A DNA stretch of 64,000 nt from Gemmatimonadaceae bacterium (lineage in GTDB: Bacteria > Gemmatimonadota > Gemmatimonadetes > Gemmatimonadales > Gemmatimonadaceae), in assembly GCA_020852815.1 (NCBI GenBank), contig JADZAN010000039.1:62001-126000 (forward strand), given 5' to 3'. Each line of letters begins with the position of its first letter. Within the stretch, counting starts at the first letter, position 1. Shown here in pieces: positions 2,297 to 13,277 of this stretch. The translations under genes and the position numbers were made by a program. The notes under the pieces were generated by a model that saw nothing but the letters and a program-made list of their open reading frames with translations, did no database searches and had not been told where the DNA came from.

Positions 2297-3058
2297 ATGC
2301 TCGTCATCAGGAATCTGCGCGCCTCGGTCGCCGACAAGGAAATCCTCAAGGGCATCTCGCTCACGGTGAACGCCGGCGGAGTGCACGCCATCATGGGACC
2401 TAACGGTTCCGGGAAGTCGACGCTCGCCCAGGTGCTCGCCGGCCATCCCGGCTATGAGGTCACGGGCGGGAGCGTGGAGTACGAGGGGAAGGACCTCCTC
2501 GAGATGGAGCCCGAGGCGCGCGCCCATGCCGGCGTCTTCCTCGCGTTCCAGTATCCGATCGAGATCCCCGGCGTCTCCAACGCCTACTTCCTGCGCACCG
2601 CGTACAACGAAGTGCGCAAGGCAAACGGGGAAGAGGAGGTCGACCCGATGGACTTTCTCGACATCATGACCGAGAAGCTCAAGCTGGTGGAGATGGACGA
2701 GGCGATGCTCCAGCGCTCGGTCAACACCGGCTTTTCCGGCGGCGAGAAGAAGCGCAACGAGATCTTGCAGATGGCGGTGCTGGAACCGCGGCTGGCGATA
2801 CTCGACGAGACCGACTCGGGGCTCGACATCGACGCGCTTCGCATCGTGGCGCATGGCGTCAACACGCTCAAGCGTCCCGACCGGGCGACGATCGTCGTCA
2901 CGCACTATCAGCGCCTCCTTGAGTACATCGTCCCCGACTACGTCCACGTGCTCGCCAACGGGCGCATCGTGAAGTCGGGGGGGAAGGAGCTGGCACTGGA
3001 GCTCGAGGCCAAGGGGTACGACTGGCTGCTGGATGAACCGGCGGCGGTGGGAGGCTAA
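2297..3058 (+). CDS. sufC: Fe-S assembly ATPase SufC
   Basis: ABC-type ATPase of the SufBCD scaffold; ATP hydrolysis drives the rearrangement of SufB and SufD during cluster building. The 253-residue product has Walker A GPNGSGKST (residues 34-42), a Q-loop at AFQYPIEIPGV, the SufC-type signature SGGEKKRNE and Walker B LAILDETDSGLD, all diagnostic for SufC over ordinary transporter ATPases. The ATG is preceded by a long pyrimidine tandem repeat rather than a Shine-Dalgarno sequence, unlike sufB. Its stop is one base before the sufD start. Confidence 0.97.
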   Translation: MLVIRNLRASVADKEILKGISLTVNAGGVHAIMGPNGSGKSTLAQVLAGHPGYEVTGGSVEYEGKDLLEMEPEARAHAGVFLAFQYPIEIPGVSNAYFLRTAYNEVRKANGEEEVDPMDFLDIMTEKLKLVEMDEAMLQRSVNTGFSGGEKKRNEILQMAVLEPRLAILDETDSGLDIDALRIVAHGVNTLKRPDRATIVVTHYQRLLEYIVPDYVHVLANGRIVKSGGKELALELEAKGYDWLLDEPAAVGG

Positions 3059-3059
3059 G

Positions 3060-4355
3060 GTGAGCACGGCACTCTATCGCGAGCAGTTCGCGACCATTCC
3101 TGCCGGCGGGCCGGCCTGGCTGGCCGGGTTGCGCGAGCGCGCGCTTGCCGCGTTCGAGGGATATGGCTTCCCGACGTCGAAGAACGAGGACTGGCACTTC
3201 ACCTCGCCGGCCCCGATCACCGAGACGTCGTTCGCGCCGATGTCGCCCTCGTCAGGCGCCGTCACCACGTCGGACCTCGCGCCCTATCTCGTGGGGAACG
3301 CCAACTGGCCGACGGTGGTCTTCGTGAACGGGCGCTACGCGCCGGCGCTCTCGCGGGTGGACGCGCTTCCCGCCGGCGTGCGCATCCTGTCGCTCGCCTC
3401 CGCGCTGCACGAGGAACCGACGCTCCTCGAGCAGCACCTGGGGAAGCTGGCCGAGTTCGACCAGCAGGCGTTCGCCTTCACCGCGCTCAACACGGCGATG
3501 ATGCGCGACGGGGCGGTGTTGCACGTGGCGAAGGAGACCGAGGCGGCGACGCCCATCCACCTCCTGTTCGTGACCGACGCCGGCGCCGCGGGGGGCGTGG
3601 CCTATCCGCGCAACCTCGTGGTGATGGAGCGGCAGGCACGAGCGACGATCATCGAGCAGTATGTGTCGTTAGGCGACGTGCGGCACCTGACCAACGCCGT
3701 CACCGAGTGTGTCCTGGCCGATGGGAGCACGCTGCACCACTACCGCCTGCAGCGCGAGGGGCGGCGGGCGTTTCACGTGGGGCACGTGGAGACGATGCAG
3801 GGGCGCGATTCGCACTACGTCTCGTTCTCCTTCGCGACCGGCGCCGAGCTGTCGCGCACCAACATCTACACCATCCTTGCAGGCGAGGGGTGCGGCGCAA
3901 CGCTGAACGGGCTCTACATGCTCGACGGCGACCAGACCTGCGACCACCAAACGCGCATCGAGCACGCGGAGCCCAACTGCTATTCGCGCGAGATGTACAA
4001 GGGGATCCTGGACGGCACGTCGCACGGCGTCTTCAACGGCAAGGTCTACGTGCGCCCCATTGCCCAGAAGACGGACGGGAAGCAGACAAACAAGACGCTC
4101 CTCCTCTCGGACAAGGCGCGGATCGACACGAAACCGCAGCTCGAGATCTTTGCAGACGATGTGAAGTGCACGCACGGCGCGACGGTAGGCAAGCTGGACG
4201 CGATCGCCGCCTTCTACATGAAGTCCCGCGGCGTCAACGCCGACACGACGCGCCGGCTGCTGACGTACGCATTCGCGGCGGAAGTGCTGGAGACGATCGA
4301 GCTGGAGCCGCTGAAGGAGGATCTCGAACGACTGACGCTGCAGCGATACCTGTAG
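3060..4355 (+). CDS. sufD: Fe-S cluster assembly protein SufD
   Basis: Paralogue of SufB and partner in the SufBC2D scaffold, needed for cluster assembly and iron acquisition. Start chosen at the GTG one base after the sufC stop, giving 431 residues beginning VSTALYREQF; an in-frame ATG at 3033 would overlap sufC and is less likely. The N-terminal SufD motif KNEDWHFTSP and the C-terminal SufBD beta-helix (LYMLDGDQTCDHQTRIEH, KTDGKQTNKTLLLSD, DDVKCTHGATVGKLD, FYMKSRGV) are present, including the conserved CTHGAT histidine. Length and order suf(R)BCDSU match the standard operon. Confidence 0.95.
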   Translation: MSTALYREQFATIPAGGPAWLAGLRERALAAFEGYGFPTSKNEDWHFTSPAPITETSFAPMSPSSGAVTTSDLAPYLVGNANWPTVVFVNGRYAPALSRVDALPAGVRILSLASALHEEPTLLEQHLGKLAEFDQQAFAFTALNTAMMRDGAVLHVAKETEAATPIHLLFVTDAGAAGGVAYPRNLVVMERQARATIIEQYVSLGDVRHLTNAVTECVLADGSTLHHYRLQREGRRAFHVGHVETMQGRDSHYVSFSFATGAELSRTNIYTILAGEGCGATLNGLYMLDGDQTCDHQTRIEHAEPNCYSREMYKGILDGTSHGVFNGKVYVRPIAQKTDGKQTNKTLLLSDKARIDTKPQLEIFADDVKCTHGATVGKLDAIAAFYMKSRGVNADTTRRLLTYAFAAEVLETIELEPLKEDLERLTLQRYL

Positions 4356-4568
4356 CTGGTGGGTCGGGCGAAAGGTCATGAACTCCCGCCGCGGCGTCGC
4401 TCGTGGGTGCGCCGGCCGGCAGTAAGGTCAAGACTTTTCACCACAGGGTGTCGCAGGGCGGTTGCAGCGCGAGGTTCGGGCGAAAAGACACCGCGGCGAA
4501 CGCGATCGGCTGGCGCACACCGCGCCGCCGCTCGAACGACGATGATGCTTGAAAGGGGACGGTTCCGG

Positions 4569-5810
4569 ATGTCGACTCAACTGGCGCACACTCCGCTCGA
4601 CGTCGCGAAGATCCGCGAGGACTTTCCCATCCTCGCCATGGAAGTGCGCGGCAAGCCGTTGGTCTACCTCGACAATGCGGCCACGTCTCAAAAGCCGCGC
4701 AGCGTCATTCACGCCCTCACGCAGTACTACGAACGCGAGAACGGGAACATCCATCGCGGGGTGCACTACCTGAGCGAGAAGGCGACCGAGTTGTACGACC
4801 TCACGCGTGAGACCGCGCGGCGCTTCTTCCATGCACGTCACGCCCACGAGATGATCTTCACGCGCGGCGCCACGGAGGGCATCAACCTCGTGGCGTCGTC
4901 GTTCGCACAGGGCGTCCTCAGGGGCGGCGACGAGATCCTCGTCTCGACCATGGAGCACCACTCCAACATCGTCCCCTGGCAGATGGCCTGCGAGCGGACC
5001 GGCGCCGTGCTCAAGGTCATCCCCATCACCGATGCCGGCGAGCTGGACATGGGCGCGTATCGCGCGCTCCTGAGCGAACGCACGAAGCTCGTCAGCGTCG
5101 CGCACATCTCCAACGCACTGGGCACCATCAACCCCGTCGCCGAGATCGTGCGGCTGGCGCATGAGGTCGGGGCGGCAGTCTTCATCGACGGGGCGCAGTC
5201 GGCGCCGCACGCGCAGGTGGACCTGCAAGCGATCGACTGCGACTTCTTCGCCTGTTCCGGCCACAAGATGCTCGGCCCCACCGGGGCGTCGATCCTCTAC
5301 GGGAAGGAAGCGTGGCTCGACAAGCTCCCGCCGTACATGGGCGGGGGCGACATGATCGACTACGTCTCCTTCGAGCGGACGACCTATGCCAGGCTCCCCT
5401 CCAAGTTCGAGGCTGGGACGCCGTCCATCGGCGATGTGGTCGCCTATCGCCACGCCTTCGAGTACCTGGAGCAGGTGGGGCTCGACGCCGTCGCCGCGCA
5501 CGAGCACGAACTCCTCGCGCACGCAACGGAGCAGCTGCGCGACATCCCGGGGGTGCGCCTCATTGGCACCGCGGCAGAAAAGGCCGGTGTGCTCTCGTTC
5601 ACGATGGACTGCGCCCACCCGCACGACATCGGGACCATTCTGGATGGCTTCGGCATCGCCATTCGGGCCGGTCACCATTGCGCCCAGCCGCTGATGCGGC
5701 GATATGGTGTTCCCGCCACCGCGCGCGCGTCATTCTACCTGTACAACACGCGCGATGAGGTCGACCGCCTCGTGCAGGGCATTCACCACGTGCGTTCCGT
5801 CTTTGCCTGA
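4569..5810 (+). CDS. sufS: Cysteine desulfurase SufS
   Basis: PLP-dependent enzyme that removes sulfur from cysteine to form an enzyme persulfide for the SUF scaffold. Start set at the ATG of MSTQLAHTPLDVAKIRED, with AGGGGA about ten bases upstream; this gives 413 residues, the usual SufS length, whereas the frame is open well upstream. K233 in CSGHKMLGPTGA is the PLP-binding lysine, and C371 in AGHHCAQPLMRR is the active-site cysteine on the short class-II loop. A gap of about 200 bases separates it from sufD; the following sufU starts two bases after its stop, so the pair is co-translated. Confidence 0.96.
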   Translation: MSTQLAHTPLDVAKIREDFPILAMEVRGKPLVYLDNAATSQKPRSVIHALTQYYERENGNIHRGVHYLSEKATELYDLTRETARRFFHARHAHEMIFTRGATEGINLVASSFAQGVLRGGDEILVSTMEHHSNIVPWQMACERTGAVLKVIPITDAGELDMGAYRALLSERTKLVSVAHISNALGTINPVAEIVRLAHEVGAAVFIDGAQSAPHAQVDLQAIDCDFFACSGHKMLGPTGASILYGKEAWLDKLPPYMGGGDMIDYVSFERTTYARLPSKFEAGTPSIGDVVAYRHAFEYLEQVGLDAVAAHEHELLAHATEQLRDIPGVRLIGTAAEKAGVLSFTMDCAHPHDIGTILDGFGIAIRAGHHCAQPLMRRYGVPATARASFYLYNTRDEVDRLVQGIHHVRSVFA

Positions 5811-5812
5811 CG

Positions 5813-6256
5813 ATGGACCTCGGCAATCTCTACCAGGACGTCATCCTCGAGCACAACCGCAATCCCCGCAACTGGGGAGAGCTCTCGCCCCCCAGTGAGC
5901 GTGCCGACGGGCGCAACCCGATGTGCGGCGACGAGGTCACGGTCTGGCTCAAGCTCGACGGCGATCGCATCACTGAGGTGACGTTCGTCGGCACCGGCTG
6001 CGCGATCTCCAAGGCGTCGGCGTCGATGATGACACAGGCGGTGAAGGGGAAGACCGTCGCCGAGGCCGAGTCGACCTTCGAGCAGTTCCACGCGATGGTC
6101 ACCGGGCATCATCCGTCGCCGGGAACCGACGCCATGCTGGGGAAGCTCAAGGTGTTCGCCGGAGTCGCGCGCTTTCCGGCACGCGTGAAGTGCGCGTCGC
6201 TCTCGTGGCACGCGTTGAGGGAAGCGCTGGAAAGCGGGAAGGCGCGCCAGCGCTGA
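5813..6256 (+). CDS. sufU: Sulfur carrier SufU
   Basis: Zinc-dependent sulfurtransferase that takes the persulfide sulfur from SufS and passes it to SufBCD, replacing SufE. The 147-residue protein has the SufU ligand set: C38 and D40 in PMCGDEVTV, C63 in GTGCAISKAS and C127 in RVKCASLSWH. The insertion between the second and third ligands (TVAEAESTFEQFHAMVTG) separates SufU from the IscU scaffold. No sufE is seen, so SufS-SufU is the sulfur-transfer pair. Its start lies two bases after sufS. Confidence 0.95.
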   Translation: MDLGNLYQDVILEHNRNPRNWGELSPPSERADGRNPMCGDEVTVWLKLDGDRITEVTFVGTGCAISKASASMMTQAVKGKTVAEAESTFEQFHAMVTGHHPSPGTDAMLGKLKVFAGVARFPARVKCASLSWHALREALESGKARQR

Positions 6257-6716: not shown

Positions 6717-7505
6717 TCACGCCGTCGCCCTGCGCTCGGCGAACTTCTCCGCTGCATCGTCACCGCCCCACACGTCAGCCGTGGGAGCGACGACGCGATA
6801 CGGATGCAGCGCGCGAACCGCCTTCGCCTTGCGATCGAAGAAGCCGGAGCGCCGCAACGACGCCTCCAGCACCCATTCCCATCCATAGCGCGCCTGGAAG
6901 TCGCGCTCCGTCATCCCGAAAAGTTCGTGGATCCAGCGCCGAAGCTCGGCGGCATTGGGTTCGTCAGCCGAGAGAAGGCGGTTGACCGACGTCCGGTCCG
7001 ACGCCAGGTCGGCGAGCGCCGCCGCGCGCTGCCACTCCAGCGCACTCCAGTCGCCCAGCAGGCGTAGCTGCTCGCGGACGCTGAAGGGGAGGAATGCGAC
7101 TTCGTTGCGGCGCAGCGCCGGCCGTGTGAAGAGATCGGCCAGGGTACGCGACAAGGTGGCGGTGCGCGTGCGGCGCACGAGCCAGTCGACCAGGTCACTC
7201 GGCGTGGGACGCGGACGAGCCGCAACCGCGCGCAGGATCGCCGTGGCCCCCTCGACGTCGTCGAGGCCGAAGACGACGCAGGTGCGCGGGAGGCGACGCG
7301 TGGAGCGCATCCCCGACTCCTCGCTCGCCAGGAGGCAGAGCGGGCACCAGGGCGCGAGGTCCATCTGTGCCTTGACGTCGTTCGTGGTCGGACGGCGCTC
7401 GACCGTGTCGAGCAGCGCGACCGACCCCAACTCGGGGGTCTGGTCGTGCATCCGGCGCGCCATCTGGTAGGGCGGCTCGAGGATCAGGAGCGACGAGTGA
7501 CTCAT
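6717..7505 (-). CDS. Uncharacterised protein with a possible C-terminal HTH
   Basis: Not recognised with confidence. The 262-residue soluble protein starts MSHSSLLILEPP and has no signal peptide or membrane segment. It contains APWCPLCLLA near residue 55 and a helical C-terminal part (LADLASDRTSVNRLL, then LRRWIHELFGMTERDFQARY, then EASLRRSGFF) arranged like a two-helix-turn-helix AraC-type domain, but the AraC signature is weak. The upstream region carries the ACACT-N7-ACCCCAGTC motif also found upstream of the small-protein and two-component operon, so it is probably a target of the same regulator. Confidence 0.6.
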   Translation of the reverse strand: MSHSSLLILEPPYQMARRMHDQTPELGSVALLDTVERRPTTNDVKAQMDLAPWCPLCLLASEESGMRSTRRLPRTCVVFGLDDVEGATAILRAVAARPRPTPSDLVDWLVRRTRTATLSRTLADLFTRPALRRNEVAFLPFSVREQLRLLGDWSALEWQRAAALADLASDRTSVNRLLSADEPNAAELRRWIHELFGMTERDFQARYGWEWVLEASLRRSGFFDRKAKAVRALHPYRVVAPTADVWGGDDAAEKFAERRATA

Positions 7506-7538: not shown

Positions 7539-7559
7539 ACACTCGTAGCAACCCCAGTC
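7539..7559 (-). promoter_or_regulatory. Shared regulatory motif, copy 1
   Basis: On the plus strand this reads ACACT-N7-ACCCCAGTC, about 35 bases upstream of the gene starting at 7505 (minus). The same two blocks with the same 7-base spacing occur at 10932-10952, upstream of the operon that encodes the adjacent response regulator. I saw no third copy in the window. It may be an operator or a promoter element. Confidence 0.55.
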
Positions 7560-7560
7560 C

Positions 7561-7678
7561 GGAAGCGGGGGGGTGGGGGGGGTGAAGAAGGGGGGGGAGC
7601 CGACGTGGCCACCCCCCTTCTCCCTCTTCGCGCGTCGCTCCCCTCGCTCCTCCCGTTCCCGCTGGGCGCTGGCCCGCG
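7561..7678. repeat. G-run tract between response regulator and HTH-like gene
   Basis: The gap contains runs of seven to eight G on the plus strand at about 7567-7600 (C runs on the minus coding strand). There is no hairpin with a T tract. It could form a G-quadruplex on the plus strand; nothing else is visible. Confidence 0.5.
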
Positions 7679-8416
7679 TTAGGCGGGGGGTGGCGATTGC
7701 GGGGTGTCGCGCGAAAGCGAGTTGTCTCCCTCACCCATCGCTTGAGGGTCGAGAGTCACGCGACCATCGGTCTCCGTGTCTTCTGCCTGACCCTCTGGTG
7801 GCAGCATGATGGCAAAGCGCATCAACCCCCACTCGGTCGTGATTCCCAGCGCTTTACGGATGCTGGCGCGATGAAACTCGATGGTTCTGGGGGAAACGCC
7901 GAGTATTTCGGCGATGTCGGTGCTGGACTTACCGTCGCCGATGAGACGGAGGATTTGCAGGTGTCGGGGGGTGAGCCGGTCGAGCGCGGGGTGCTGCACC
8001 GCCGTGGCGTCACGAAACGAGCGCTTGGGGACGCGCGGGGAGATGAACGCCTTGCCGGCCAGGACGTGCTCGATGGCTGAATTGAGCTCCTCGGCTGAGG
8101 CCTCCTTGGGGATGAAACCGTGCGCCCCTTTCTGGATGGCGAGGTCGGCCAGCGCTCGATCGACGTGCATGGTGACGATGAGGACCTTGAGCGCGGGGTA
8201 GGCGGCGGTGATATCGGGGAGGAGTTCGAGCCCGTTGCGGTGGGGCATCGAGAGGTCGAGGAGGAGGATCTCCGGCTGGTGCTTCCCGATCTCGGTGAGG
8301 ACTTCGCGCCCGTCGTTCACCACGCCCACCACGAAGTAGTTCGGCTTGAGGAGCGACCGAAGCCCGTGGCTCATGAGGGGGTGGTCGTCGCAGATCATGA
8401 CTGGGGTGCGGCGCAT
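7679..8416 (-). CDS. LuxR/NarL-family response regulator
   Basis: DNA-binding output protein of the two-component pair with the kinase just upstream (nine-base gap). The 245-residue protein has an N-terminal receiver with D10/D11, phospho-acceptor D54 in LLLDLSMP and K in PKEAS, followed by a GerE/LuxR HTH (LTPRHLQILRLIGDG, SSTDIAEILGVSPRTIEFHR). The last 40 residues (from about PPEGQAEDTETDG) are a polar, probably disordered tail that NarL proteins normally lack. Likely binding sites are the two ACACT-N7-ACCCCAGTC motifs, one ahead of this operon and one ahead of the next gene. Confidence 0.92.
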   Translation of the reverse strand: MRRTPVMICDDHPLMSHGLRSLLKPNYFVVGVVNDGREVLTEIGKHQPEILLLDLSMPHRNGLELLPDITAAYPALKVLIVTMHVDRALADLAIQKGAHGFIPKEASAEELNSAIEHVLAGKAFISPRVPKRSFRDATAVQHPALDRLTPRHLQILRLIGDGKSSTDIAEILGVSPRTIEFHRASIRKALGITTEWGLMRFAIMLPPEGQAEDTETDGRVTLDPQAMGEGDNSLSRDTPQSPPPA

Positions 8417-8425
8417 GGCTATCCC

Positions 8426-9271
8426 CTACTCGTTCACGGGTACGGAGGCTCGGACGGTCGTGCCCTCGCCGGGGGAGGAGCGGATGTCGAACTCTCCCTC
8501 CGCCAGGCGAGTGCGTTCGGCCATGGAGATGAGTCCCAGCCCGGCGCTTCGGGCCGGATCGGTGGACACGAAGCCGCGGCCGAAGTCCTGAACGGTGATC
8601 TCGATCCTGCCGTTGGCGGCTCGCGTCCTGACGCTGGCTCGCTTGGCCCCCGAGTGCTTCACCACGTTCCGCAGCGCTTCCTGTGCAATACGGTAGAGCG
8701 TCAGCGCGCGTTCACGGGAGAGGTGCGCGGCCTCGCCGTTGTCGTCGAACTGCGTGTCGAGGTGGATTCCCGAGGCGCGCTCGACGTCGGAGGCCAACTG
8801 GTTGAGTGCGGGGATGAGCCCTGCCTGGTCGATGATGGCCGGGTGCAGCCGGTGGGCGACACGGCGGAGCATGACGGCGAGATCCTGCAGCTCGTCGCGC
8901 AACGCCTCGACGCGCACCGTGGTCGCCCGTGGGGTGTCGGAGGCGGAGGGCGTGGTGGGGGTGGTGGGGGAAGCGGATGTTGCCGACGTCGCGGACGCGG
9001 TGGAGGCGGAAGTCGAGAACTCATCCGAGTCCCATTCACTGAGTTCGTGCTGCAGCATGGCGACGCGCTGGAGTGCATCGTCGTGTACTTCGCGCGCGAC
9101 CCAGGCGCGCTCGTCCTCATGCGCCTCGAGGAGTTTCTTGGCGTAGCTCTGGTGGAGCTTGATGTTGTAGCGCTGGTAGATGAACATCGCGGCGGCGAGG
9201 GCGGCGAGGACCACCCCAACCGCCATGGCGGCCGCTATGTAGATCCAGACGAGTTGTTGGGAAGCGGGCAC
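8426..9271 (-). CDS. Membrane sensor histidine kinase, HisKA_3 type
   Basis: Sensor kinase expected to phosphorylate the downstream LuxR-type regulator. The 281-residue product begins at GTG, has one membrane segment (residues 8-31), then the HisKA_3 dimerisation helix with H63 in AREVHDDALQRV, and an HATPase domain with G-rich boxes DFGRGF and LGLISMAERTR. It has no extracytoplasmic sensor domain, so the signal probably comes from a partner, plausibly the multi-pass protein whose gene overlaps its start by about 37 bases. Residues 85-115 are a Ser/Thr/Ala/Pro low-complexity insertion, rare inside a HisKA_3 region. Confidence 0.9.
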   Translation of the reverse strand: MPASQQLVWIYIAAAMAVGVVLAALAAAMFIYQRYNIKLHQSYAKKLLEAHEDERAWVAREVHDDALQRVAMLQHELSEWDSDEFSTSASTASATSATSASPTTPTTPSASDTPRATTVRVEALRDELQDLAVMLRRVAHRLHPAIIDQAGLIPALNQLASDVERASGIHLDTQFDDNGEAAHLSRERALTLYRIAQEALRNVVKHSGAKRASVRTRAANGRIEITVQDFGRGFVSTDPARSAGLGLISMAERTRLAEGEFDIRSSPGEGTTVRASVPVNE

Positions 9272-9894
9272 CTCATTCCCCTCCAGATCAGGACGAACGC
9301 GACCACATCACCGTACGCACGCGCGTTGTACACGAAGAGCATTGCGCGCAGGTCGCTGGGGTCCATCGCCGCGACGATCGGGTCGATTGCGGCGAAGAGT
9401 CCGAAATACAGCAGGACCCCCAGTGTCGTCCAGAGCCAATCGCGTCCCCAGACTCCTTCCGGGCGGTGTGCCAGGTTGGAGAGGAGGGTAAACGCCGTCC
9501 AGAGCAGGAGGACGAGGGCACGGAACGGGTGACTGATCGTCTTGAACGTCCCTTGTTCGCCAGTTGCAAAGATCAGCACGATATACGCGACGAAGACGAG
9601 CGGGATGGAGACCCGCACGGCGATGCGCGCCAGCGGCTTCACCTGCCAGTACGAGTACGCCCACAGGAGAATGGCGTCCTCGACTGGCTCGGCGATGGTG
9701 AAGTACCAGAGGTTATTGCCGCTCGACTTCGAGATGGCGAGCTGAATGAAGTCGGAGACGAAGAAGAAGGTGCACCAAATGGCGATCCATCGTCTGGCGT
9801 CCGTCGACTGCCTCCACCTTCCGGCCACCGCAAGCGCCGGCAACAGTTGGGCGAAGACGGCCAGCGTCGCCGGAATCCAATCGAGGAACGTCAC
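9235..9894 (-). CDS. Multi-pass membrane protein, putative sensor partner
   Basis: Unrecognised integral membrane protein. Starting at the GTG of VTFLDWIPATLA it has 219 residues and about six to seven hydrophobic helices (for example LAVFAQLLPALAVAG, VSIPLVFVAYIVLIFA, ALVLLLWTAFTLLSNLA, LGVLLYFGLFAAI). No catalytic motif is visible. It overlaps the kinase gene downstream and begins about 35 bases after the second small-protein gene, so all five genes appear to be one transcript. A role in signal reception for the kinase is inferred from this arrangement. An upstream start at 9969 would overlap the preceding gene. Confidence 0.7.
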   Translation of the reverse strand: MTFLDWIPATLAVFAQLLPALAVAGRWRQSTDARRWIAIWCTFFFVSDFIQLAISKSSGNNLWYFTIAEPVEDAILLWAYSYWQVKPLARIAVRVSIPLVFVAYIVLIFATGEQGTFKTISHPFRALVLLLWTAFTLLSNLAHRPEGVWGRDWLWTTLGVLLYFGLFAAIDPIVAAMDPSDLRAMLFVYNARAYGDVVAFVLIWRGMRCPLPNNSSGST

Positions 9895-9929
9895 AGGGAG
9901 TTGCTTCTTCTCCGGGCAGGACTCCCGAG

Positions 9930-10343
9930 TTAGAGCAGCGGCGAATCGGTCGGACAGTACGGCGGGCACGGGTAGTGATTGTCGAGCAGGACGGCTCCAC
10001 CAGTCGCTGCCGCCGCCGCGCGACGACCCTTGGCCGTTGCGGTGATGTCGTTCCCCTTCTCATCCACACCGACAACGACAGGCGAGTAGATCCCCTCGGC
10101 GGTCAATCCGTGGTAGTACCGGATTCCGACGCAGCCAGGCTGCTCGAGAATCTCCTTGATGCCGTCAGCCCAGAAGAAGCCTGCGTGCTCTGACGCCGGC
10201 GCGGCCTTGCGATAGCGCTGCGTGAGATCGACGGCAGCCGCCAGCGTGATCCGTTGCGACTCCTTCGGCGGGAGCGCGCGCGCCGAGGGCCGCTTGCCGC
10301 GTCCCTTCCCCTTCCTCTTGCCACTCAACTTTCGGATAGCCAT
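9930..10343 (-). CDS. Small protein with C-terminal CPPYCP tail (paralogue A)
   Basis: Uncharacterised 137-residue protein. It starts with a basic stretch (KLSGKRKGKGRGKRPS), then a helix like that of its neighbour (ITLAAAVDLTQRYRKA), a core CVGIRYYHGLTAEG ... VVVGVDEKGNDIT, and ends LLDNHYPCPPYCPTDSPLL. No signal peptide or lipobox is seen. Start supported by GAGG nine bases upstream. The neighbour at 10475-10828 has the same plan and the same tail, so the two are a tandem duplication. I recall uncharacterised small proteins with CPPxC tails in Bacteroidota, but could not check. The paired cysteines could bind metal or form a disulfide; no function is known to me. Confidence 0.8.
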   Translation of the reverse strand: MAIRKLSGKRKGKGRGKRPSARALPPKESQRITLAAAVDLTQRYRKAAPASEHAGFFWADGIKEILEQPGCVGIRYYHGLTAEGIYSPVVVGVDEKGNDITATAKGRRAAAAATGGAVLLDNHYPCPPYCPTDSPLL

Positions 10344-10474
10344 GTCAGTCCTCGCGTGTTGGAAGATGCGGATGAATGGTTAGGCGCCCGACGCGCACCG
10401 CGCCAGCACCGTGCGCAGATGCAACGGTACTGGCGCGAGGAATCTGCGATGGATCGGCGACGGCGGAGTGCCGG

Positions 10475-10828
10475 TCAGCCTCGCAAGGCGCTCGCTTCCG
10501 TGGGACAATACGGCGGACAAGGATAGTGGTTGTCGAGTGATGTCATCGACCCATCCAGCAAGTCACTACCGTTGGCATCGGCTGCAACCAACACCACCGT
10601 ACGCTGCCCCTTCGCATCGCGGGCATGATAGTACCGTAAGAACTCGGCGTCCGGACGGCTGAGCAGCGCAAGGATCGCCTTCTTGCTGAACATCCCGCCC
10701 AGCGACCCTTCCTCCGCCTTGCGGGCGCCGGAAACGGTGGCTTGGGAACGATGGCGGCGCGTCATGTCGGCCGCTTCGGCGGCGCTGATCGCATGATCGC
10801 GCCCAGGCTGAAGAGGAGGATTGGCCAT
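10475..10828 (-). CDS. Small protein with C-terminal CPPYCP tail (paralogue B)
   Basis: Uncharacterised 117-residue protein, the first gene of the five-gene sensory operon. Plan: helix ISAAEAADMTRRHRSQ, then FSKKAILALLSRPDAEFLRYYHARDAKG, a strand pair TVVLVAADANGSDLLDGS and the tail SLDNHYPCPPYCPTEASALRG. It shares with paralogue A the RYYH motif, the VVxV-D-x-G-xD segment and the 12-residue tail LDNHYPCPPYCP, while the N-termini diverge. An ACACT-N7-ACCCCAGTC motif lies about 105 bases upstream. Function unknown; conservation concentrated in the tail suggests that the tail is the working part. Confidence 0.8.
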   Translation of the reverse strand: MANPPLQPGRDHAISAAEAADMTRRHRSQATVSGARKAEEGSLGGMFSKKAILALLSRPDAEFLRYYHARDAKGQRTVVLVAADANGSDLLDGSMTSLDNHYPCPPYCPTEASALRG

Positions 10829-10931
10829 GATGGCTCGGTGAGGTCACGCGTTGTGAGTAGACCAGCCCGCTCCACGCGGATGCGCGGGCCGGCAGGAGTG
10901 CAGAGATGATACGCCAGCCTCGGCATGCCGG

Positions 10932-10952
10932 ACACTAGGGGTAACCCCAGTC
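10932..10952 (-). promoter_or_regulatory. Shared regulatory motif, copy 2 (contains a GGGGT-A-ACCCC palindrome)
   Basis: Plus strand ACACT-N7-ACCCCAGTC with an internal palindrome GGGGTAACCCC at 10938-10948. The outer blocks and spacing are identical to the copy at 7539-7559. It lies upstream of the minus-strand operon 10828 to 7679 that encodes a response regulator, so autoregulation is likely. Confidence 0.6.
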
Positions 10953-11391: not shown

Positions 11392-12474
11392 TCAGCACAG
11401 GTGCACTGCCATCGCCTTGAACGTCGCCCACACCTCCACCCCATCACGCAGCTCGAGTTCATGCACCGAGCGCGCGGTGAGCGCCGCCACCAGCGCGACG
11501 CCCCCCACGTCGAGCGTCACGCGCGCATAGGCCCCCAGCAGCGCGACCTCGCGCACGATGCCGCGAAAGGTGTTGCGTGCCGATGACGGCGAGGGCGTGC
11601 GCGTGAGGACCACTTCTTCTGCCCGGATCACCGCGTACGCTGTCCCCGACGGCGGGGCGACCCCAACTGTGTACAGCGTGAGCGCGCCGCTCGTGAACTC
11701 GATCGCGTGCTGCTCCCCGAGGTAAAGCGGCGGCGCCCCGTCTACCCAGTCGGGCGCCACATCCTCCAGCAGCCGCGCCGTCCCCGCAAGCACATTCTCG
11801 GCGCCCAGGAACTCGGCGATGTACGGCGACGCCGGGCGGCGAAAGACCTCTTCGGGGGGGCCCGACTGCAGCACGCGCCCCTGGTCGAGAAGGATCGCAA
11901 CGTCGCCCAGCAAGCCTGCCTCGGTAAAGTCGTGCGTCACCTGCAACACGGTGAGCCCCCACTCGCGGTGAATCGCGCGGACCTCGCGGCGCGTGCGGGC
12001 GCGGCGCCCCGGATCGAGGGCGCTGAACGGCTCGTCGAGCAGGAGGATGCGCGGGCGCACGGCGAGGGCGCGCGCTATCGCCACCAGTTGCCGCTCACCT
12101 CCGCTCAGGCTCACCACGTCGCGCTCGCGCAGCCCCGCCAGGTCGAAGCGCCGCACGACTTCCTCCACCGTTGCCGTGTCGGTGGCGCCGTAGGCGACGT
12201 TGGCCTGCACCGAGAGGTGCGGAAAGAGATAGCCGTGCTGGTACACCAGCCCCACTCGGCGGCGCTCCGGCGCGAGCGAGCGGGCATCCTCGCCGTCCAG
12301 CTGCAACTCGCCGCCGGTCGCGGGGACGATCCCGGCAATGGTCTCGAGCAACGTCGTCTTCCCCGAGCCGGCGGGGCCAATCACCACGCCGTACTGTCCA
12401 CGCGAGACGGTGAACGAGACGCCGCTCAGGCGAAAGCCGCCCTGGCGGGCGGCAAGGTCGCGCGCGGCGATCAC
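11392..12474 (-). CDS. ABC transporter ATPase, molybdate/tungstate/sulfate type
   Basis: Energising subunit of an importer with the permease encoded just upstream. Start taken at the GTG (12474) overlapping the permease stop as GTGA, giving 360 residues. Walker A GPAGSGKTT, Q-loop LVYQHGYLFPHLSV, signature LSGGERQLVAIARALA, Walker B ILLLDEPFSALD and the H-loop THDFTEA are all present. Residues from about 215 form a TOBE/MOP-like regulatory region (PSSARNTFRGIVREV, ARSVHELELRDGVEVWATFKA), typical of ModC/WtpC/TupC. No periplasmic binding protein gene follows or precedes, so the substrate is inferred only from subunit type. Confidence 0.88.
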   Translation of the reverse strand: MIAARDLAARQGGFRLSGVSFTVSRGQYGVVIGPAGSGKTTLLETIAGIVPATGGELQLDGEDARSLAPERRRVGLVYQHGYLFPHLSVQANVAYGATDTATVEEVVRRFDLAGLRERDVVSLSGGERQLVAIARALAVRPRILLLDEPFSALDPGRRARTRREVRAIHREWGLTVLQVTHDFTEAGLLGDVAILLDQGRVLQSGPPEEVFRRPASPYIAEFLGAENVLAGTARLLEDVAPDWVDGAPPLYLGEQHAIEFTSGALTLYTVGVAPPSGTAYAVIRAEEVVLTRTPSPSSARNTFRGIVREVALLGAYARVTLDVGGVALVAALTARSVHELELRDGVEVWATFKAMAVHLC

Positions 12475-13277
12475 TCCATTCCCCCGGCGTGCAGCTCGCG
12501 GCTCCCGCGCAGCGCCCGCAGGAGCGCCAGCGGGACGAGGGCAATGAGGACCAGGACCGCCGCCACCGGAATCGCCTCGCCCAACCCGTAAGTGGTGAAG
12601 CGATCGTAGCTCAGCACGCCCACCGTTTTCGGGTTGTAGGTGAGGATGACGATCGCGCCGAACTCGCTCACCGCGCGCGCCCACATGATCACCGCCGACG
12701 CCAGGAGGCCGCGCTGCGCCAAGGGAAGCGTGATGCGCCGGAAGACGCGCCCTGCTCCATCGCCCAGCGTGCGCGCCACCGCCTCGTATCGCACGTCGAC
12801 GCGGGCAAAGGCTTCACGCGCCCCGCTCACATACAGCGGCGCCGAGACAAAGAGCATGGCGCAGACAATGCCGAGCGGCGTCCCCACCACGCGCAGCCCC
12901 ACCAGGAGGAGCGCCTGTCCCACCGCGCTGTCGCGCCCGAGCAGAAGGAGGAGGGCGATGCCCGCGACAGGGTGCGGGATGACGAGCGGAAGGTCGAGCA
13001 GCGCCGCCAGCACGGCGCGCCCGGGGAAGCGGCGCCGAGCCAGGAGATAGGCGAGCGGCGTCCCCAGGAACACGCCGACCAGCGTCGCCACGGTCGCCGC
13101 CCCACCGGTGAGGAGGAGCGATGCGCGCAGTTCGGCGTCACTCCCCAGACGCCGGATCCCCTCGCTCCCGCCGCGTACGACGAGTTCACCGACCGGGGCG
13201 ACGAGGAAGATGAGGAGCCCCGAGGCTACCAGCGCCGCGAGAATGGTGCTGAGGGCGGGAAGGCGGCGATTGCCCAT
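12471..13277 (-). CDS. ABC transporter permease, ModB/WtpB-like
   Basis: Membrane subunit of the oxyanion-type importer, 268 residues with about six hydrophobic segments. The cytoplasmic EAA loop that docks to the ATPase is visible as YEAVARTLGDGAGRVFRRITLPLA. LDLPLVIPHPVAGIALLLL and MWARAVSEFGAIVILTYNP match ModB/TupB/WtpB proteins. Its stop overlaps the ATPase start. A solute-binding (ModA/TupA) gene is missing from the window: the 160 bases upstream lead straight to a divergent ABC gene. The binding protein may be encoded elsewhere. Confidence 0.87.
   Translation of the reverse strand: MGNRRLPALSTILAALVASGLLIFLVAPVGELVVRGGSEGIRRLGSDAELRASLLLTGGAATVATLVGVFLGTPLAYLLARRRFPGRAVLAALLDLPLVIPHPVAGIALLLLLGRDSAVGQALLLVGLRVVGTPLGIVCAMLFVSAPLYVSGAREAFARVDVRYEAVARTLGDGAGRVFRRITLPLAQRGLLASAVIMWARAVSEFGAIVILTYNPKTVGVLSYDRFTTYGLGEAIPVAAVLVLIALVPLALLRALRGSRELHAGGME

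Follow-up and report, generated by a model that had tools for sequence, protein, structure and literature searches.

A conserved operon of Gemmatimonadota and Bacteroidota in which a small tail protein and a seven-helix membrane protein may supply the input of a two-component system

The genome of a Gemmatimonadaceae bacterium harbours a sensory operon containing two unnamed protein families: a small protein with a conserved C-terminal tail, here called S, and a seven-helix membrane protein, MEM. The operon lies in a window of 64,000 nucleotides, which is the whole stretch of DNA that was analysed. The cassette formed by S and MEM is real and conserved, and no description of it was found in the literature searched, in which subscription journals were thinly covered. 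The interpretation favoured here, at a probability of roughly 0.5, is a two-component system whose receptor is divided between S and the seven-transmembrane (7TM) MEM. MEM would stand in for the sensor domain missing from the adjoining kinase, which would probably couple to it through its own single transmembrane (TM) helix. S would act as the dedicated partner of MEM, contributing a folded core and a conserved C-terminal tail (CPPxC, often with SPLN) that is recognised by an operon-specific partner, most likely MEM itself. An altered S, or an altered binding of S, would change MEM, this change would switch the kinase and the regulator would then alter transcription. We infer from sequence both the contact between S and MEM and the direction in which the signal travels. 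The components are as follows (window positions).

10475..10828, minus strand: S117, small tail protein, paralogue A (open frame of 122 aa)
10499..10537, minus strand: codons of the tail LDNHYPCPPYCPT in S117, with CPPYCP at 10503-10519
9930..10343, minus strand: S137, small tail protein, paralogue B, with a basic N-terminal stretch (open frame of 149 aa)
9948..9986, minus strand: codons of the tail LDNHYPCPPYCPT in S137, with CPPYCP at 9952-9968
9235..9969, minus strand: MEM, predicted seven-TM membrane protein (AlphaFold2 model, charge topology)
8426..9271, minus strand: HK, one TM helix followed by HisKA_3/HATPase_c (Pfam)
7679..8416, minus strand: RR, response regulator with a receiver and a GerE (LuxR/NarL-type) DNA-binding domain (Pfam)

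As read from the open reading frames, the gene order is S117, S137, MEM, HK and RR. A gap of 131 bp separates S117 from S137, S137 overlaps MEM by 40 bp (with MEM taken from a GTG start), MEM overlaps HK by 37 bp and 9 bp lie between HK and RR. The five frames, all on the minus strand, have the places and lengths given in an earlier note on this DNA, which had also remarked on the short gaps and overlaps. To judge from spacing and conservation, the five genes are probably transcribed together; simple scans for a promoter or terminator at the operon returned none, which speaks neither for nor against a single transcript. At 173 bp past RR, on the same strand (window 6717-7505), lies a gene for a 262-aa protein without a family match, which is kept at the same place in the genus of the window and in genera g33 and g12; tblastn found no match to it in the other loci searched. 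The operon is flanked on one side by SUF Fe-S assembly genes on the plus strand and on the other by ABC transporter permease and ATPase-like genes on the minus strand (window 3033-6256 and 11392-13277), all identified by reading only.

The arrangement extends well beyond this genome. With S137 as query, 24 of the 179 genomes from its own family yielded relatives, and a profile of 24 rows, used for the wider searches, matched 31 of 298 Gemmatimonadota, 29 of 296 Bacteroidota (as delimited by GTDB, an Ignavibacteria genome included) and 4 of the 10 genomes of a third, small phylum. Neighbours were counted on the same strand at loci picked solely by their S sequence and offering 3 kb or more of contig. 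Downstream of S, a kinase is present at 73 of 75 loci, MEM at 71 and a response regulator at 65, and all three occur together at 63; over an equal interval upstream, the kinase is found at 4 of 73 loci, MEM at 1, the regulator at 6 and the three together at none. The profile search and these counts clearly dispose of a scattered family with no conserved neighbours, one of the outcomes that the earlier note had named as its refutation, and they bear out its idea of a sensory operon, which proves to be conserved and whose parts include proteins without a name. The two unnamed families make up one signalling cassette in approximately 10% of the sampled Gemmatimonadota and Bacteroidota. In flavobacterial-type loci (L180-L183, L188, L256-L258 and L261) the cassette is often flanked by the same two genes, one of about 514 aa before it and one of 419 aa with one TM helix after it, whose products are possible targets or partners.

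Searches for the membrane protein give a concordant picture. MEM occurs in 35 of 298 Gemmatimonadota, nearly the same genomes as those with S, and in 62 of 296 Bacteroidota. Most of the 37 Bacteroidota MEM loci without a prior S match have a small gene upstream, which at a permissive threshold matches the S profile in 18 of the 37, about eight more being similar by eye. The tight co-occurrence of S and MEM in Gemmatimonadota is also compatible with S helping MEM to assemble or to remain stable while playing no part of its own in signalling. This is improbable, as duplicated S genes, S-S fusions and lipoprotein forms are more easily understood as ligands or co-sensors.

Members of the S family share a helical N-terminal part, the motifs GxRxYxG, LVLVGVD..GND and PCPPxC and, often, SPLN at the extreme C-terminus. 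Residues R75, Y77, C126, P127 and C130 were invariant in the first S alignment, with cysteine losses appearing in wider sampling. The earlier note held that neither the small proteins nor the membrane protein could be named, and this stands: S117, S137 and MEM fall into no Pfam or NCBIfam family, their relatives show no more than a few weak matches, and searches of Pfam, NCBIfam, PADLOC, Rfam and PDB sequences gave S and MEM no identity. S137 has no plasmid match. The structure model of S is weak (pLDDT 68.4), so that the fold search based on it, with a best Z of 3.1, is uninformative.

S117 and S137 fall in two supported clades of a maximum-likelihood tree (96/91 and 99/96), both of which include members from the genus of the window and from g12 and g33; the duplication therefore predates these genera. 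Contrary to the earlier note, a pair of small proteins is not the core of the system: most loci have a single S, some encode two S units fused in one frame, and the nearest relative of the window, G158 of the same genus, has the S117 type only. In the fused proteins at L105:3965-4666 and L161:5381-6133 each unit has its own tail; the first tail of L161 is degenerate (LRPAWC), yet it retains the W of the second.

Both proteins of the window contain RYYH and carry the same tail of 13 residues, LDNHYPCPPYCPT, as the earlier note had seen, and codons for CPPYCP occur only twice in the entire 5.38 Mb genome. Seven of the 13 tail codons differ between S117 and S137, all of them silently; a recent copy, considered as a source of the identity, is unlikely given these differences, and the tail has been kept at the protein level. 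Across the genomes compared, the tails of the two paralogues in a genome share 94% identity as against 76% and 80% between orthologues, whereas the cores follow the opposite trend, with 34% between paralogues within genomes and 52% and 55% between orthologues. Among 720 pairings of the genomes, no more than 2, one of them the true pairing, reach the within-genome agreement of the tails. Between paralogues, 3 to 7 of the tail codons show silent differences, and recent copying therefore does not account for the match; an old gene conversion of the tail may be its source.

Residue x of CPPxC shows a similar pattern. In all 9 pairs encoded in one operon the two proteins agree at this residue, as against 1 of 11 pairs drawn from different operons of a single genome (Fisher p = 6e-5, shared ancestry ignored), although the two sets of pairs overlap in core identity (0.28-0.59 and 0.20-0.43, respectively). 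Six of the nine same-operon pairs go back to a single old duplication and the pairs are thus not fully independent. Since the tails agree within an operon in spite of the age of the paralogues and of the silent codon differences, the simplest reading is that both are probably recognised by one operon-specific partner, and the tandem S-S proteins L105 and L161 fit such a single reader. Partial Mantel tests did not separate MEM, kinase and regulator as the partner of the tail; MEM is the most likely reader, since it is the component that stays with S.

The location of S bears on how such recognition might work. The open frames of S117 and S137 leave no room for a signal peptide, and export signals are absent from most of the family. 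Within the Bacteroidota set, six S proteins begin with a signal or anchor segment (a seventh that was flagged, L057, is doubtful), and divergent S-like genes adjoining MEM at L270, L271, L274, L279, L281 and L282 carry lipoprotein-type signal peptides. By sequence, S would be cytosolic in the window and at most loci and exported in some Bacteroidota; a single mode of contact with MEM is therefore not obvious. Anchoring, which the earlier note had listed among the possible functions of the tail, is unsupported, as the exported members already possess N-terminal signals.

A recognition element and a peptide signal are the two roles that fit the tail best. In the second case the tail would be released and sensed by the 7TM protein and the kinase, in the manner of ComX-ComP-ComA or AgrD-AgrC-AgrA. 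The tail stands at the extreme C-terminus and is matched within operons and not between them, a pattern that a ligand paired with a receptor of its own would produce; two precursors sharing one tail, fused proteins with repeated tails, the signal peptides of some S proteins and a kinase and regulator of the NarL class all agree with this scenario. The processed peptide put forward in the earlier note accordingly survives as a candidate, but it is weakened by the lack of an export signal in most S proteins and by the conservation of the core. Moreover, no neighbour other than those counted above is conserved: no protease, exporter or modifying enzyme accompanies S, no processing or export protein of a known family, such as Agr/ComQXPA-type signalling would call for, adjoins it, and MEM itself matches no family. 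The CPPxC frame is also common to several phyla, unlike most species-specific pheromones. Peptide communication is on balance rather unlikely, and recognition of the tail by an operon-specific partner remains the preferred reading.

The cysteines of the tail point to another explanation, in which S is a cytosolic thiol or metal switch: the CxxxC tail would bind metal or form a disulfide, S would act directly on the kinase and MEM would serve only as a scaffold. The cysteine pair, in a CPxxC pattern, is kept in 81 of 91 S proteins, and the impossibility of a signal peptide in S117 and S137 agrees with a cytosolic site. However, a flavobacterial group with CPPYGDPNSPL-type tails has lost the second cysteine while keeping PCPP..DP.SPLN and the operon, and one of its members, L188, has lost both (tail VPPYGDPDSPLNP). 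No conserved cysteine of MEM accompanies the pair; a cysteine at the end of MEM helix 7 was tested and showed no link. Such a switch would also leave the within-operon matching of residue x unexplained, and it is considered unlikely. As some lineages have lost the cysteines, a universal role as metal site or disulfide switch, two functions suggested in the earlier note, is unlikely; the cysteines may be important without being the constant element of the tail.

Turning to the putative receptor, a confident AlphaFold2 model of MEM, built from eight sequences over the stretch 9235-9897, shows seven TM helices (mean pLDDT 84.9, pTM 0.81); the true start of the protein is probably inside the frame 9235..9969. 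The loops carry 6.4 Lys+Arg per protein on one side and 1.8 on the other, which predicts an N-out/C-in topology; in this orientation the conserved NN-L-W motif would face the outer side. The best structural match of the model is the TM domain of mGlu2 (Z 13.1, rmsd 4.2, 206 residues), and Gloeobacter rhodopsin aligns at Z 11.7, although a Z of about 13 among helical bundles may reflect a common arrangement only and not kinship. There is no sequence relation to GPCRs or rhodopsins, and the last helix of the window MEM has no lysine that could bind retinal.

Among bacterial families, 7TMR-DISM (PF07695) and HisKA_7TM (PF16927) resemble MEM in coupling seven TM helices to varied intracellular signalling domains. 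Weak matches to PF07695 were found in 3 of 79 MEM relatives (best 3e-4), the window MEM has no Pfam match, and hhalign gave a probability of 15% over only 22 columns; for PF16927 there was no Pfam match and the hhalign probability was 9.5% over 50 columns. Neither profile comparison supports homology. A 7TMR-DISM protein combines 7TM region and output in one polypeptide, whereas MEM has a frame to itself in the loci examined and no output domain is fused to it.

The kinase and regulator are more conventional. RR matches Response_reg at 9.8e-26 and GerE at 4.7e-13. HK matches HATPase_c at 1.8e-12 and has a REVHDD H-box; its HisKA_3 match is short, below the cut-off (0.0054) and interrupted by an insert, while the L009 kinase matches at 3e-11. 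This insert, a Ser/Thr/Ala/Pro-rich stretch of low complexity at residues ~80-115, follows the H-box within a helical hairpin and was not seen in the kinase relatives at L003 and L009. The best NCBIfam neighbours of kinase and regulator, all below cut-off, are MctS/MctR, UhpB and NarX. Pfam detected no sensor domain in HK, which has a single N-terminal TM helix, and the statement of the earlier note that the kinase lacks a sensor of its own holds. A single TM helix, no more and no fewer, is predicted in 59 of the 63 kinases adjoining MEM, as a rule close to the N-terminus and some 50 residues ahead of the H-box. The other four comprise the second half of a split frame, one frame without a start and two with over-extended starts, as partly inferred. 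Kinases of this build would have to receive their input from elsewhere, and MEM would be the obvious source.

By Pfam, the kinase and the GerE regulator belong with the HisKA_3/NarL two-component systems, from which they differ in that the kinase has no input domain and input seemingly comes from S and MEM. In LiaFSR and VraTSR, a three-gene logic places an accessory membrane protein beside a NarL-class kinase with little input of its own, and the cassette resembles them in its accessory membrane protein, low-input kinase and regulator. However, MEM has no LiaF-type match in Pfam or NCBIfam, the window kinase scores 46 bits against LiaS with a cut-off of 450, and the cassette adds a small tail protein. 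The lipoprotein forms of S recall systems in which a lipoprotein or accessory protein gives instructions: in Rcs (RcsF-IgaA-RcsCDB), a lipoprotein instructs a membrane partner. In QseG-QseE, according to PMC6075780 and PMC12691602, an accessory protein or lipoprotein instructs the kinase. The differences are that no sequence relation to either was seen, with no Pfam match to IgaA or RcsF among MEM or S, that most S proteins are not exported and that MEM is a short 7TM protein.

Outputs downstream of S and MEM vary and include HisKA_3 kinases, PAS kinases, a hybrid kinase and a PAS-GGDEF-HD protein. The last is found in the third phylum at L007:5992-9063, where S and MEM are followed by a one-TM protein with two PAS domains, GGDEF and HD, so that the same input pair would appear to feed an output of the cyclic-di-GMP type. 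As this locus and those with PAS and hybrid kinases keep S and MEM, the pair is the constant element and the output is exchangeable. A broader proposal, which is offered tentatively and may well not hold, is that MEM represents a widespread and hitherto undescribed class of 7TM receptors that read a dedicated small protein or tail peptide operon-specifically and feed interchangeable single-TM outputs. If S and MEM are indeed ligand and receptor, they would offer a compact system in bacteria for studying how a seven-helix receptor senses a protein or peptide; the recognition tail would be directly testable by swaps across operons, and kinases seemingly without a sensor would have their input. 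The ratio of the components also varies, as two or three tandem MEM genes accompany a single S and a single kinase at L155, L170, L171 and L190.
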